A DNA stretch of 64,000 nucleotides from Tomocerus qinae (taxonomy: Eukaryota; Arthropoda; Collembola; Entomobryomorpha; Tomoceridae). Where the stretch lies: contig CM034550.1 of NCBI GenBank assembly GCA_020055645.1, positions 18,055,001 to 18,119,000 on the forward strand. The letters are read 5' to 3'. Below are positions 37,843-56,036 of the stretch, one piece after another. Below the pieces are notes generated by a model. It searched no databases. It saw nothing but the letters and a program-made list of their open reading frames with translations, and was not told the DNA's origin. Made by a program: the position numbers and the translations under genes. Each line of letters begins with the position of its first letter. Within the stretch, counting starts at the first letter, position 1.

Positions 37843-38245
37843 GTGAGTATATCCTTGATATTCCGTGGTCGTATTGGGCCATGATGAAAAGCGGTAGAAG
37901 AAGACATTCAAAAATCCTTCATTGTAGCATCATCTCCTCGCCTCTTCATTTCCATTATTCTCCGTCTTGTGGCTGTTAATTTTGTAAATTAATTAAAAAT
38001 ACAAAATTCTTACTTTTACAAATTTTGGTCAGTTACAGTGTCTGAAGAAGATATTTAGCTACACAGTTAAAGTTTTTACCGCGTCGCCATCGCGTATTTT
38101 ACGACCACAAAGTGAGCCAGTAAGAGTTGACTATAGAGAGCGAAACTTTTCTCCAGGCCGGAAGGTAAACGTAAACAAACCGCTAATTTCCGCAGAGTTT
38201 TTGAGTGATTACCTGTACAAATTACTACGTAAATTGACTTTGAAA

Positions 38246-40779
38246 ATGGGACGCACCAAGAAAGACGACAGTTCGTCATCCGCAACAAAAGCCGTGGACG
38301 CCAAGTCAAAAGCAATTGAGAAAGCAAAACAGCGCCAAACCCGAGAGCGGGCCCAGAAAAGCTACCGGGAGCACTCCGAGTCGGAAGAGTCCGAGAAAGA
38401 GGTTGCTTTTAAAGATGAAGAAGTCAAATTTTCGGATGAAGAAATGTCTGCATCGGAATCTGGGTCAGATTGGGCTGGTGAGAGTTCTGGAAGTGAATAT
38501 GGCAAAAAGAAGTCCAAGGGGAAGAAGGGCAAGGCTGTAGCTAGGGGAAGGGGCAGAAAACCCGCGGCTTCCCCGAAAGGTAAAGGAAGGGGGAGACCCC
38601 CAGCGAAGGGGAAGGCGAAAGCCAAGGCATCTCCTGCGAGCAGCAGAAATGGAAACAGAAAAGCCGCCGCCAAACGTTATCGTGATGATTCTGAAAGTGA
38701 GTCCGAAGCCGCCAGTTCTGGAAGTGAATATGGAAAGAGGGCAAAGCCAACTCCTAAGAAAAGTCCATCGAAACCAGCTCCCGCCCCGAGTTCCAGAGGT
38801 CGCGGACGTCCTAAGGCTGCTGCCAAGTCCTACAAAGAGATATCTGAAGATGACTTCAGTGAGGAGGAGGCACCAAAAAAATCCGCTCCTAAGAAATTTA
38901 AAAAGGATGAGTCCGAGGAAGAACGGAACAAGTCCGATGAATCTGGAAGTGAGAAAAGTGAAAATGAGAGCAAGCCCGCTAAAGCTACCCCAAAACCTAA
39001 ACCTCGTGCTACTGCATCTAAACCTGCCAAGAATGGAGAGGATGAGGAGGACGGATTAGATGAAGAAAAACCAGCTGACAAAAAGAAACCGAAAGAATCT
39101 GATGAGTCGGGATCTGCTGGTTCAGAAAGTGAGGAAGAAAAGCCGAAAGAGAAGCCTAAGGAAAAGCCTGCTCCAAAATCTGAAGCAAAGAATGGCGATA
39201 AAGATGACAAAGCTAAAAAGGAAGATGATGACGAAGAAGACGAAGATGATATCAGCGAGGAGGAAGAACCGGAAAAGAAGAGTGAGCCAGCAGCAGCACC
39301 ATTAAAGAACAAGACGGACACCGATTTTGATTCCATTGATTTTGAATGCACTAAAAAATCGTCGAAAGGAGATGCTTGGAATTTCAAAATCTCTTGCTGG
39401 AACATCGGTGGAATCAAATCCTGGATTAAGGTAAATGAAATGGTTGTTTTCTTTATTTTTATCTTTTTTTCGGTTGGAAATATGGTGACAGGACTTTAAT
39501 GTTACATAATAGGTATTATCTATTAGGTAATGCCGATATAATATGGTTTGATTAATTTTTTACGCAGAAGAACGGGTTGGATTATTTGAAGCACGAAAAT
39601 CCTGATGTCATGTGCTTGCAAGAAATTAAATGCTCGGATAAAACCAAGCCACCAGAAGTCAAATCTATTTCTGGTTATCCTTTCACTTATTGGGAATATG
39701 CTGAACAATCAGGCCACCACGGAGTTGCAATTTTGTCAAAAACTGAACCGAAGAAGGTTACTAATGGTTTGCCCATCGAGGACTCGGATTCTGATGAGGA
39801 AAAGAAAGCTAAAGAAAAATTCAATGTAGAGGGACGGCTTCTTACAGCAGAATATGAGCATTTTCATCTCGTCAATGCTTGTAAGTCATTTCGTTTCTCT
39901 TCCTATATTTTTATTTTCCTTGTTTTGCATTGTATTTTATTTGGCATCCAGAGAAAATAATAATATGTAGTGTATAGTAATAAGTACATTATTATGTGGT
40001 ATTTACATCAATAACGCCATTTTATACAATTTTAATTTCACCAGAGACTAGAGACATTTTAGTATTTGTATCGTCAGGTGGTTCGATCCAACTTAAGGCA
40101 ATGTATATTTTTGCATCTAACATCACTTCCATCAGACTCAATCAAACTGTCCGTAAATATATGTTACAATTCTTGGATATTGAATTTTTGTAGATGTGCC
40201 CAATGGAGGACGAGGTGTACCATCTGAGAAGCATCCTAAAGGCTATCCCCCCAAAGTGGCCAATGGAGAGCGCCAAGAATTTGACAAACTCTTGCGAGTT
40301 TATGTCAAAAGTTTGGATGAAAAGAAACCTGTCATATTAACGGGAGACTTAAATGTTTCCCATGCCGAAATTGGTAATTTAAAAAATTCTTTTTTATAGA
40401 ATTTCAAAATAAAATTAATGTGAAGATTTAAATTCAAAACCAATAATGTTATTTATCATTCATATTTACATTTAAAGATTTAGCAAACCCGAAAACCAAC
40501 AACGCCACTGCAGGATTCACCAAGGAAGAGCGTGAAGGCATGACCCAACTTCTGGAGGAGACAAAGCTGTTCGATTCATTCCGTGAACTGTATCCGGACA
40601 AGAAGGCTGCATACACATTTTGGAGCTACATGCACAATTCCCGGCAGAAGAATATTGGATGGCGCCTTGATTATTTCCTGTTGTCCGAGAAGCTAAAAGA
40701 ATCCTTATGCGAAAACTTGATGAGGACAGAAGTGTATGGATCCGACCACTGTCCTTTGGTTCTTTTCATCAAGGTTTAA
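38246..40779 (+). CDS. Rrp1: Rrp1/APEX1, AP endonuclease with long basic-acidic N-terminal extension
   Basis: Base-excision repair enzyme that cuts DNA at abasic sites in the nucleus. Four exons (38246-39430, 39568-39880, 40194-40373, 40478-40779) give 659 residues; Drosophila Rrp1 has 679. Residues 1-380 are a low-complexity extension of alternating Lys/Arg, Ser and Glu/Asp runs. It holds three AT-hook-like cores (RGRGRKP about 100, KGRGRPP about 113, RGRGRPK about 184) and a repeated SSGSEYGK. The EEP-fold catalytic domain fills about 381-659. Active-site blocks are visible: WNIGGIKSWI, CLQEIKCSD with the metal-binding Glu, NAYVPNGGRG with the catalytic Tyr, GDLNV with Asp/Asn, GWRLDYFLLS and GSDHCP with the catalytic His. 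All are intact, so the enzyme should be active. The whole extension lies in exon 1. Confidence 0.95.
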
Positions 40780-50303: not shown

Positions 50304-51255
50304 ATGGCTGGTCTCAAAGGTAAACACTTGCCAAATAATGAGTTTTGTTTTATCAACTTTGATTCTAATTCTGAATTCCATTAATTTTAAATTTTAGTTT
50401 CAGTTCGGATAATTAAATCATAATAGAGGCTAGTATTAATTTCTTGATATTTGTTTGTTTTTAAATTGATCCATTGCTTGTGTTTTTGCCTTTCATCTTT
50501 GGTCGTTATTCTGGAAAATATTTGCGTTCCTTACCGTGAAATTTTTCTGCATTGCGTGTGATGTCGGCCCTCACCTTTACATTTCCACTACAGCGTAAGA
50601 TTTATAAATAAACATTTAATAAAGTTGAAAATTAGTGTTTAAAGTGTCAATGTCCTTATTGCAGTTTAATTTAATCTCGATTTACTATTATTTTAATTAG
50701 ATTGGTATCGCTGGCGTTTTTTGGATCTGTTGGTATGACCTTCCTGGTTGTTGGCTGCGCACTTTACGAAAAGTATTAATTAAATTGCTAATAATAATGA
50801 TGATTGTTGATTATGGTGATAAACATGTAATTACACACTCCTATTTTAAATCACAGTTGGTGGCCATTCTTCGTCATAATCTTTTATATGCTTGCACCGA
50901 TCCCAATGTTACTAGCCCGTAGATACAATTCGTCTTCTGGAATGGGACCTTCAAATGCGTGTCAAGAGTTAGCAATTTTCCTGACGATGGGCATAATCAT
51001 ATCGGCTTTCGGACTTCCGATAGTTTTGGCTCGATCTCCTGTTCTTGCTCCCACGGTAGACAAATAATATAGATTCCAAAAAAATATATTTATGGAACAA
51101 AGATAAAAAATTCTATGCCAGTTTTTCTATTTTAATTGCAGATAACACATGCAGCGATGTGGTATGTAATAGCCGGAAATATTGTTGTATTCCTCACTAT
51201 TGTTGGATTTTTCATGACATTTGGAAACGAAGATATGGACTACACAATGTGGTAG
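50304..51255 (+). CDS. LEPROT: LEPROT/LEPROTL1 (endospanin) homologue
   Basis: Four-helix membrane protein of Golgi and endosomes; vertebrate endospanins limit surface display of leptin and growth hormone receptors, and yeast Vps55 acts in endosome-to-vacuole traffic. Exons are read as 50304-50319, 50594 alone, 50701-50772, 50857-51055 and 51142-51255, giving 133 residues (human 131). The product starts [20 protein letters not shown], then [52 protein letters not shown], and [18 protein letters not shown], ending DYTMW like DFSWEQW. The 16-nt first exon leaves G and the 72-nt exon begins with A, so one base is missing for the conserved Ala codon. The C at 50594, bracketed by CTACAG and GTAAGA, supplies GCA exactly. 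Without it the frame breaks. Confidence 0.88.
50594..50594 (+). other. Candidate single-nucleotide exon of the LEPROT gene
   Basis: The context is a pyrimidine-rich tract, CCACTACAG, then C, then GTAAGATTT. It splits the first 381-nt gap into introns of 274 and 106 nt. G (50319), C (50594) and A (50701) form GCA, the Ala of the family-conserved MAG-x-K-A-L. An assembly error deleting one base at the exon is the main alternative. Confidence 0.7.
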
Positions 51256-52932: not shown

Positions 52933-55900
52933 ATGTTTAATAGGATAATAGTTTTACTTATATTACTAATCTTGGAAAAGACACTTTGCTCAGATCAGAT
53001 CTGCAAACTCTCTACTTTAAGAGAATGGAACGAAAAAGTAGATAATATTAGTGCAGCAGTGAGGATATTTAGTAGCACTGAGCCTAAACCTAGGAAAATA
53101 CCTCTTTGTATAGGGATGAGTAACAACAACACTGAACCATGGAACCTCATGAAGCACTTTATGCCAATTTTTGATGATATCAAAGTAAAAGAGAACTTAG
53201 AGAGTTATGAAGTGGGATTATCAACTGATAAAAGTGGCAGGTAATATTACATACTTTTCTAAATCATATATCTACCCATTATATTCCATCTTCACTCATG
53301 CCTTTATTATGGACTCATCAATTTGTACTTTTGATTTTAAAAGATCACCCTTAGGATTTGTAGAAAGAGTAAGTATTTTACTTAGTCATCCTTTGCTAAT
53401 TAAATTAATTCGACATTAAACCATTAAACATACATTTTACAAATAATGATTTGGATTTTTTCTAGATCTTATTCTCCAGAATAACGTAAGTATATAAAAT
53501 GTCAAAGTGTACTTTTTTAAATGATCACTTAATTGTCTTTATAGTATCAATTAAATCATACAACCTCTGTTAAGCTCCATTTTACAGAATTTTACTTCAT
53601 AATTGCATCCTTTGTTTGTTAGTGTCCCAGAAAGATCAATGACTAACCTTCGGCAATGGGTCCACATTCAGTTTAAGATTAAATCTTTACAAGGCATTAT
53701 TGTTCAGCCTATATGTATGCCACTTGGTTTACCTTGTGGAGAATTTAAGGTATATCCTGGTAAGTCCATTTCGGTTTTTGCATAATGACACCAATGTCAT
53801 AAAAGGTCAACATAATTTTCATTACATGATAATAAACGTCTTTTGAAAACTGTTTAGATATTAACTGCCCTGATTGTTTCCACATGAGATATGATTACAT
53901 GTTTCAAGCCCCTTGTCTGTACCGACCTAAAGCTTCTGTAATTGTAAGTTCTAAAAATCTTTTAATATTGGCAACAATCTTTTTACATTGGTAGCTAAAA
54001 TAACCAATTTTCTGTTTCAAGCATCCTCATGCCTGGGTGTTTAAAAGCGACGATGTTCCAAGAAATGAATTGCACACTAACTTTATTTGGATTGATGCCA
54101 TGTGTCAGGAAATGCTCTCGGTACAATTCTTGTGAGTCTTTAGATAGTGTAGTGCTTATTAGTACTTTTATGTATTTTAAAAGTTTTTTCACTAGATCGT
54201 GCCTAGTGTAATTTTTAATTGCTTAAAATGACAATAGTAGACAATGGTATTTACTATTTACATATCTTGTGCTAACGTTTACATGTGTGAGGGCTGCCAT
54301 TATTATTTGCAGAATTGTTGCAGTAAAAAGTTTTAGCAACAAACTATACGAAGTATTCTACAGTCCTGTGTACAGCAATCTGCACCAAGATGGTAAAGAA
54401 GGAAGTCCATATTTGTGGGCGCAAGCAGCATTCGCTAAAAATACAAAATGTCATGGAGGTGATCAGACTTGTTCCAACTGTAAAAAAATCGACCCAATCA
54501 AACTAGGTGTAGACAGAAGAATAGGCGCTATACTTCCGTACAATATAGAGTATGACGACTGTATCAAAAATAATGCAGGAGTAAACAACGAATGTCCTCC
54601 TGGACCATTTAAATGTTACGTGGATCGGAATACAACTTCTTATAGTTTAAAAGGGAAGGGAATAATCTTAGGAGAAACACTGGAAAAATATCGAGAAGGC
54701 TTGATTCCCCATATGTTGGGATGTCCACCAAAATGTGTAGATCCTGATGAACAAAGAAAAATAGCATGTAATATGCGTTCTACAAGGACCCCTAATGACG
54801 AAGCTACTATGGGAAGAAAATTCTCCATACCACTTTATACAGAATTTCTTAAATCTTCTGTTCTCCTTAAAAGGGTGAGTGTAATCAATCCTTCATTTAA
54901 ATTTCACCAAAATGATTTTAATTAATGCATCGGGTAATGTAGGCTGAAAATCGAAGTCATGGAGCGTTAATGATTTTCGCGTGTTTTGTCCTGACCACGA
55001 GCAGTATTTTCATATCACGATTTCTAAAAGAATCAGCAGGTATAGCAGGATCTTCAAGTTGTCTTGGAATGGCTTGGTGGCTTTGGGTAACTGTTAAATT
55101 GTATCTCTTTCCTGTTAAAAATGAGTACTTGAAAAACAAATGTGTATAGATTATAGATGACAAATTGTCTTTATCAATCAATGTACGATTATTTTTTTGT
55201 TTTAGGCTCACGTTCTGATCACATTTTTTACTCTCGGGATAATGTGGATGGGAATTGCTAGTATAACTTACGAATTGGGTGAAAACCCTTACACTTGTAA
55301 GGGACTGATGAACTACGTGAACAAAAGTAAATTGGCTGCATCTGTAGAGGATATGCTAGAAATGGATAAGCTCTGTAAATCAGCAAAAAGTCTGAGATAT
55401 TTGCACAGAACTGTTGGATATATTTCAATTATTCTTCTCTATGTGGAGACTTTGATAGGATGGGTGAGACCAATGATGAAATCATTGAGATCTTGCAGTA
55501 TTTCAATCCATGCTTTCTTGGGATACTTCTCTATCATTGTAGCCGGTATTTACCAAATTGCAAATTCTAAATTGATAATTCTTTGTCAGGTAATTGTTTC
55601 AATTTCCTGTATAATTCTTTTCATTGCAGCCATAACAGTTGTAACTTCTCATGTCTGCCTCGATATCAAATTAATATCTGTAGTGGGAATTGTTGTACTA
55701 AACTTTTTACTCATTTTCTTTGTAACTTTCTGCCAAATATTTATCGATACAAGATATGAAGTCGACAGATCAATGTGTCCAGTCCCGGGAGTCAATGAAA
55801 TTGGCCCATGTGGATTAATGAAGGCTATGACAACATTTTTTCAGTGTGTCCTCACTCTAATTATGTATTTTCTCATCGTGTACAGTTATCAGGCACAGCG

Positions 55901-56036
55901 GGATTTTCAAGATAAAAACGAAAAAAGTATATTTTTCAGTGAAACTGTCTACCACGAAACCCGATCCAAAAAATGGTGTCCTTTTTATGGAGCTGATATT
56001 GTTGTTGGTACTATTTTATCAGAATTTTGGGAGTAA
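52933..56036 (+). CDS. Membrane protein with cytochrome b561 core and large cysteine-rich ectodomain
   Basis: Probable transmembrane b-haem electron-transfer protein, related to ferric-chelate reductase-like b561 proteins. Nine exons are read: 52933-53240, 53344-53368, 53466-53485, 53623-53759, 53858-53943, 54022-54131, 54313-54874, 54943-55086, 55206-56036. All phases agree, giving 740 residues. Residues 1-20 form a signal peptide (MFNRIIVLLILLILEKTLCS). About 450 extracellular residues follow with many cysteines (CPDC, TCSNCKK, CPPGPFKC, GCPPKC) that I cannot match to DOMON or reelin domains. The C-terminal core has the four b561 haem-histidine contexts in order: RSHGALMIF, AHVLITFF, LHRTVGYI and IHAFLGYF. 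Three more hydrophobic helices follow, the last before a short charged tail. Two micro-exons of 25 and 20 nt are needed to keep frame. Iron or ascorbate chemistry is inferred only from the core. Confidence 0.78.

Follow-up and report, generated by a model that had tools for sequence, protein, structure and literature searches.

In land plants, VPS55 contains a microexon of 1 nt (Yu et al. 2022, PMC8831610). According to the accessible part of that study, its donor is GTRAGT, annotations made without the microexon have shorter or different N-termini, and a truncated Arabidopsis VPS55 is without 13 N-terminal residues, the microexon lying upstream of its start. The same part reports the microexon for one of the two VPS55 gene clades of flowering plants, and VPS55 transcripts both with and without it for Selaginella, hornwort and liverwort. 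Arabidopsis APC11 also has a single-nucleotide exon (Guo and Liu 2015, PMC4674806), for which, in the available text of that paper, the proof came from cDNA and reporter constructs. In Fusarium, CYP621A has a one-nucleotide exon (Nelson and Syed 2026, PMC12940212) that, in the sections at hand, was found via a mismatch between phase 1 and phase 2 and is backed by at least 20 orthologues and SRA reads; these sections count CYP621A as the second example, and so leave out VPS55, and they list animal nuclear exons of 2-5 bp in Drosophila and human. Exons of 3 bp are given for named fly and rodent genes in an excerpt of PMC7392893. In the texts consulted, no shorter animal nuclear exons than these are mentioned. 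A 1-bp exon is described for the placozoan mitochondrial cox1 gene in an excerpt of PMC5436844, which, on ultra-short exons, refers to a report on the mitochondrial genomes of lichen fungi. Finally, Drosophila has recursive splice sites, or ratchet points, which the accessible part of PMC8605326 describes as juxtaposed acceptors and donors used in stepwise splicing. In the open-access literature searched, we found no single-nucleotide exon in an animal nuclear gene. The original prediction for the locus described here held such exons to be almost unknown, with one plant gene described. The kind is indeed very small; it is better documented than that, by VPS55, APC11, CYP621A and cox1.

Based on the analysis reported here, we suggest that the LEPROT/endospanin (Vps55-family) gene of the springtail Tomocerus qinae very probably contains a real one-nucleotide spliceosomal exon, a C at 50594, that would split codon 6 as G/C/A and be spliced in two consecutive steps. 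The gene is located at 50304-51255 on the forward strand of the window, i.e. the whole stretch of 64,000 nucleotides analysed (GCA_020055645.1, contig CM034550.1, positions 18,055,001 to 18,119,000), to which all positions refer. Joining its five coding segments (Table 1) gives a CDS of 402 nt including the stop codon, with an open, stop-terminated frame of 133 aa. The conceptual protein belongs to the Pfam family Vps55 (PF04133; residues 7-127, 123.2 bits where the curated cut-off is 24.6), and its closest named relatives in a protein search are from two other springtails, Folsomia candida (80% identical across 87% of the query) and Allacma fusca (72% across 98%). A search by sequence gave no relative in the PDB, and Rfam gave no match at gathering score. 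The locus is present once in the assembly (334,443,149 bases in 115 contigs). A protein search of this assembly recovered the three longer exons of the LEPROT gene and one insignificant match, which we rejected as a paralogue or retrocopy (E 0.56, two stops); the 334 Mb yielded neither a second copy nor a retrocopy. Within the window, the pattern ATGGCNGGNYTNAARGGTRA matches exactly at exon 1 alone.

Table 1. Features of the Tomocerus qinae LEPROT gene (positions in the window)
Feature	Position	Strand	Remark
Exon 1, coding part: MAGLK and first base (G) of codon 6	50304..50319	+	sequence ATGGCTGGTCTCAAAG
Intron 1a, 274 nt, GTAAAC...CTACAG	50320..50593	+	
Putative branch-point A in CTCAC, 21 nt before the C	50573	+	motif match only
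Putative 1-nt exon: C, second base of codon 6 (GCA for Ala)	50594	+	
Intron 1b, 106 nt, GTAAGA...AATTAG	50595..50700	+	no other genomic copy found
Decoy acceptor AG inside intron 1b	50663..50664	+	top-scoring AG of the gap (6.6)
Downstream exon: final A of codon 6, 23 residues, two bases of codon 30	50701..50772	+	
Intron, 84 nt	50773..50856	+	
Coding exon, NWWPFF...VLAPT	50857..51055	+	protein match in genome
Intron, 86 nt	51056..51141	+	
Last coding exon, stop TAG	51142..51255	+	

Exon 1 (MAGLK and a G) is followed by the donor GTAAAC. After the AG at 50699-50700 comes ATTGGTATCG, so that a single base precedes the Leu codon of the downstream exon (A/TTG). Together, the two exons are one base short of the frame, as originally predicted and with coordinates that proved exact on recheck, and they are separated by a gap of 381 nt. 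The frame of the downstream exon is open upstream only to 50675 while the AGs of the gap end at 50664 and 50700; therefore, no other AG can serve this exon in frame, and use of the decoy AG would run into a stop. We scanned the gap for internal exons that are no longer than 150 nt, have AG/GT borders, contain no stop and leave 40 nt or more of intron to either side. Six such exons restore the frame, three of 1 nt and the others of 7, 10 and 16 nt. The three longer ones were rejected because they add residues that are absent from aligned relatives and have poor borders. The gap has three AG-N-GT sites, i.e. C 50594, T 50636 and T 50645; either T would give Val and has poor borders, and only the C gives Ala, which bears out the original prediction on this point. 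The lone C, preceded by the AG at 50592-50593 and followed by GTAAGA, restores GCA for Ala both in the sequence and in the joined frame, again as predicted. The site therefore has the two properties expected of a single-nucleotide exon, i.e. a single base with AG before it and GT after it within a longer gap, and an inclusion that restores both the frame and a conserved residue. It is distinct from a recursive zero-nt splice site, in which AG is directly followed by GT, because one base lies between them. If the C is skipped, the frame is lost and a 17-residue peptide results; alternatively, translation may perhaps start from Met18.

This arrangement shares features with each of the described systems. 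As in VPS55, the plant homologue of the springtail gene, the exon is in a member of the Vps55/LEPROT family (PF04133), lies near the N-terminus and has canonical splice sites. If the alignment is ungapped, the plant site precedes springtail codon 6 by at least two codons, with N-termini that align poorly; a comparison of plant VPS55 N-termini did not reveal the location of the microexon. Positional identity of the two sites is thus not supported, although N-termini aligned this poorly would also be compatible with it. As in the accessible account of APC11, one base that is required for the frame lies between AG and GT (there in a gap of 422 nt), and the logic of the inference is shared; APC11 is a different gene and was proven experimentally. 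The CYP621A exon, as far as described in the sections at hand, is likewise the middle base of a codon, although in a fungal P450. The cox1 exon is, according to the excerpt, also an animal one-base exon, also a C and also keeps a conserved residue; it is mitochondrial and, hence, not a product of the nuclear spliceosome. Ratchet points have in common with the springtail site the juxtaposition of acceptor and donor and the stepwise splicing, but the springtail mRNA would keep one base and the springtail gap is short.

How unusual is CAG-C-GTAAGA in a gap of this size? The site has eight pyrimidines in positions -15 to -4, and the candidate branch motif upstream of it is of the form yUnAy. The pattern YAGNGTRAG has six matches in 2 x 64 kb with 4.5 expected from shuffles, or 0.018 per 381 nt, in agreement with the chance level of about 2% originally estimated. 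When a pyrimidine tract (at least 8 of 12 positions) is included, CAG-C-GTAAGA is the one YAG-N-GTRAG site on both strands of the window, among 359 AG-N-GT sites. For YAG-N-GTRAG with a tract, the expectation per 381 nt is 0.003 from the window and, when N is set to C in a first-order Markov model, 0.0003; if the borders are relaxed and N is C, the values per gap become 0.021 (window) and 0.0075 (Markov). Genome-wide, the two strands of the 334 Mb together contain YACAGCGTAAGA 45 times, i.e. about 0.00003 per 381 nt, versus 41 times for the reversed-pattern control, so that there is no clear excess over this control. YYYNCAGCGTAAGA, which the window's own site does not match, has 50 matches in the genome versus 27 for the control. 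Fifteen of these 50 matches are the near-palindrome CTTACAGCGTAAG, which is present on several contigs and probably represents a dispersed repeat and not splice sites.

We also scored the site with a splice matrix made from only 10 introns (eight from the neighbouring VCP gene and two from LEPROT), with the real acceptors scored leave-one-out. The C-site acceptor scores -1.2 and is surpassed by eight of the 10 real acceptors, by five other AGs of the gap and by the acceptor of the exon at 50701. The C-site donor scores 6.1, above five of the 10 real donors, and ranks second among the GTs of the gap, behind that of exon 1. In summed score, 54 of the 359 AG-N-GT sites of the window, the C site included, reach its level, and the Markov model gives 0.12 equally good sites per 300 nt for any base and 0.003 with C. 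Thus, the 10-intron matrix fails to single out the C site, of which the acceptor is weak and the donor ordinary. The site itself is ordinary; what lends it weight is the required base together with the frame. GTAAGA is the donor in three of the eight VCP introns of the window; because these introns span 76-170 nt, intron 1b is typical in length. For the gap, there was no second match in the genome and only chance matches of 12-17 bp in the window, and we therefore rejected the idea that intron 1b is a repeat copy.

The alanine at codon 6 is found in a near-identical protein. P0001, a transcript-like JGI protein (contig of 1145 bp), is identical at 130 of 133 residues (98%; differences at 94, 99 and 110) and reads MAGLKALVSL. 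With three of 133 residues differing, it appears to be from a relative or from another population. We take P0001 to represent a transcript because one uninterrupted frame crosses all intron places; since it has Ala at this place, the Ala codon would be present in the mature mRNA of a very close relative. More broadly, we considered 155 animal proteins from two match lists (all 92 of one and the best 120 of 697 of the other, the latter search giving no genomic evidence), of which a first regular expression placed 59 in a full-length class. Among these 59 listed proteins, position 6 is A in 44, S in seven, G in six, and E and T in one each. The other 96 listed rows comprise 45 with other N-termini, including six with MAG-x-R that are effectively full length, and 51 unmatched rows, i.e. 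internal-Met starts, fragments and some MAG-x-K proteins missed by the expression. On a recount among the matches listed, 74 of the 155 start with MAG-x-K/R, at least 21 start at an internal Met and 60 are of other kinds. By source, 17 of 59 NCBI-sourced animal proteins among the matches listed have the MAG-x-K/R start versus 57 of 96 from other sources.

Several observations on these proteins are of separate interest. Many of the listed animal LEPROT proteins have an internal-Met start or an odd N-terminus, which is an annotation problem at the codon-6 junction. We gave little weight to the start of Folsomia candida P0010 at Met18 because at least 21 of the 155 animal proteins start there. 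The Sarcoptes gene models P0084 and P0090 differ at the codon-6 junction, one having the read-through MAGLKGKSF and the other being two residues short, with MAGLKVFLAF versus MAGLKELVVLAF in Dermatophagoides. At the next junction (50756-50772/50857), springtail-like LEPROT proteins are two residues shorter, with CALYENWW versus CALPQYNNWW in other arthropods. Scans of prokaryotic and viral collections confirmed no contaminant springtail DNA and gave no sister-species gene for comparison. Elsewhere in the window (762-56033), Pfam and PDB matches identify genes for a GGA-like protein (GAT), an Ig-domain protein, GILT, a DUF829 protein, a myosin head, a galactosyltransferase, an endonuclease, which we take to be Rrp1-like with a long charged N-terminus, and VCP; three ORFs (37997-39496, 54227-54922 and 55206-56033) gave no Pfam match.

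The main rival explanation is an error in the assembly. In this case, a C would have been lost at the end of exon 1 or at the start of the next exon, one ordinary intron of 381 nt would separate the two, and CAG-C-GTAAGA would be coincidental. The weak acceptor of C 50594 in the 10-intron matrix is consistent with this explanation, as are nine of the 45 odd animal N-termini among the matches listed, which end like a read-through of an ordinary acceptor NAG/CN; an initial C thus seems normal for this exon elsewhere. Nevertheless, we consider such an error unlikely. The missing base would lie between G and A, outside a homopolymer (CTCAAAG/GTAAA, TAATTAG/ATTGG), the assembly is chromosome-scale, and a site of this quality is expected by chance at 0.0003-0.003 per gap. 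Moreover, the nearby VCP gene shows no frame error across the 726 residues aligned and the eight junctions. VCP, which is on the other strand, aligns to residues 46-770 of human VCP with gaps only at two roughly joined junctions; the eight junctions are in-frame GT-AG introns, the last differing from human by one residue. The integrity of VCP bounds gross assembly error and no more. For a rough weighing, we assumed about 1e-5 to 1e-4 for a specific one-base deletion, 0.0003-0.003 (at the loosest 0.02) for a chance site and, from two conserved plant clusters, perhaps 1e-6 to 1e-5 per intron for a one-nucleotide exon. With these inputs, the weighing would favour the exon by a few-fold to some hundreds, except in the worst corner of the ranges.

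The remaining two explanations both accept the sequence as it stands. A single non-canonical intron, either TA...AG or GT...TA, could use G 50320 or G 50700 and thereby give Gly at position 6, the residue found in six of the 59 listed full-length-class proteins. Introns with these dinucleotides are extremely rare, P0001 and the aligned full-length springtail-like relatives with a MAG-x-K start have Ala or Ser, and the strong C site would stay unexplained, all of which make this reading very improbable. Even less probable is that the sequenced animal carries a broken allele with a real one-base deletion from which the protein is not made correctly: the frame is indeed lost when the C is unused, but the gene is otherwise intact, its protein shares 98% identity with P0001, and no second copy that could take over was found in the assembly. 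We infer that the C site is probably used in vivo as a one-nucleotide exon.

How would a one-nucleotide exon be spliced? Because CTACAG and GTAAGA flank one base and can hardly be bound simultaneously, removal of the two introns would be successive. We suggest that the splicing machinery probably recognises introns 1a and 1b by intron definition and removes them in turn. If intron 1b is removed first, the resulting CCACTACAG/CATTGG (CCACTACAG/CATTGGTATCGC) would be an ordinary 3' splice site before an ordinary exon and, therefore, no machinery for defining a 1-nt exon would be needed. If intron 1a is removed first, AAAGC/GTAAGA would be a usable donor of the recursive-splice-site type. In other words, both orders would rely on the normal splicing machinery, and inclusion of the C would give the mRNA junction CTCAAAGCATTGGTATCGC, the contrasting junction being CTCAAAGATTGGTATCGC. 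For plant microexons, the accessible part of PMC8831610 reports reads showing successive removal of both introns, mostly the downstream one first: of 69 microexons, 16 had downstream-only reads, four upstream-only reads and 49 both kinds, and downstream-splicing reads were more numerous in 32 plant microexons.

Most likely, the arrangement would have originated from two introns in one codon, one after the first and one after the second base. Among the matches listed, the nine odd N-termini mentioned above end V-A, I-A or T-A immediately ahead of exon 2 (P0012, P0062, P0082, P0213, P0224, P0225, P0227, P0234 and P0265); these endings fit read-through of NAG/CN and, therefore, an ordinary phase-1 intron. 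Eight others of the 45 listed end in R (P0039, P0053, P0063, P0083, P0235, P0243, P0250 and P0264, with the same N-terminus in P0053 and P0063) and three in K. R and K endings would fit a one-base start of exon 2, like the window's own read-through I-R-L-V-S-L. The remaining odd N-termini among the matches listed are the six with MAG-x-R and 19 of other kinds that decide nothing. Read in this way, the protein ends hint that both intron positions may exist in arthropods and that T. qinae may have both. We also speculate, while regarding it as rather doubtful, that Vps55/LEPROT is a recurrent or ancient home of a one-nucleotide exon that is present in lineages that keep both introns. If true, this would help to explain the few MAG-x-K/R starts among the listed NCBI-sourced proteins, comparable to the misannotated plant VPS55 proteins.

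The springtail exon is a well-formed and probably real single-nucleotide exon and, within the open-access literature searched, apparently the first of the spliceosomal kind in an animal nuclear gene. The gene family in which it occurs is that of one of the few plant cases, VPS55. If the exon is real, an animal spliceosome would handle the limit case of exon size, and the order of splicing would be directly testable. It would also warn of possible misannotation, owing to a one-nucleotide exon, at the N-terminus of a gene that is widely conserved.
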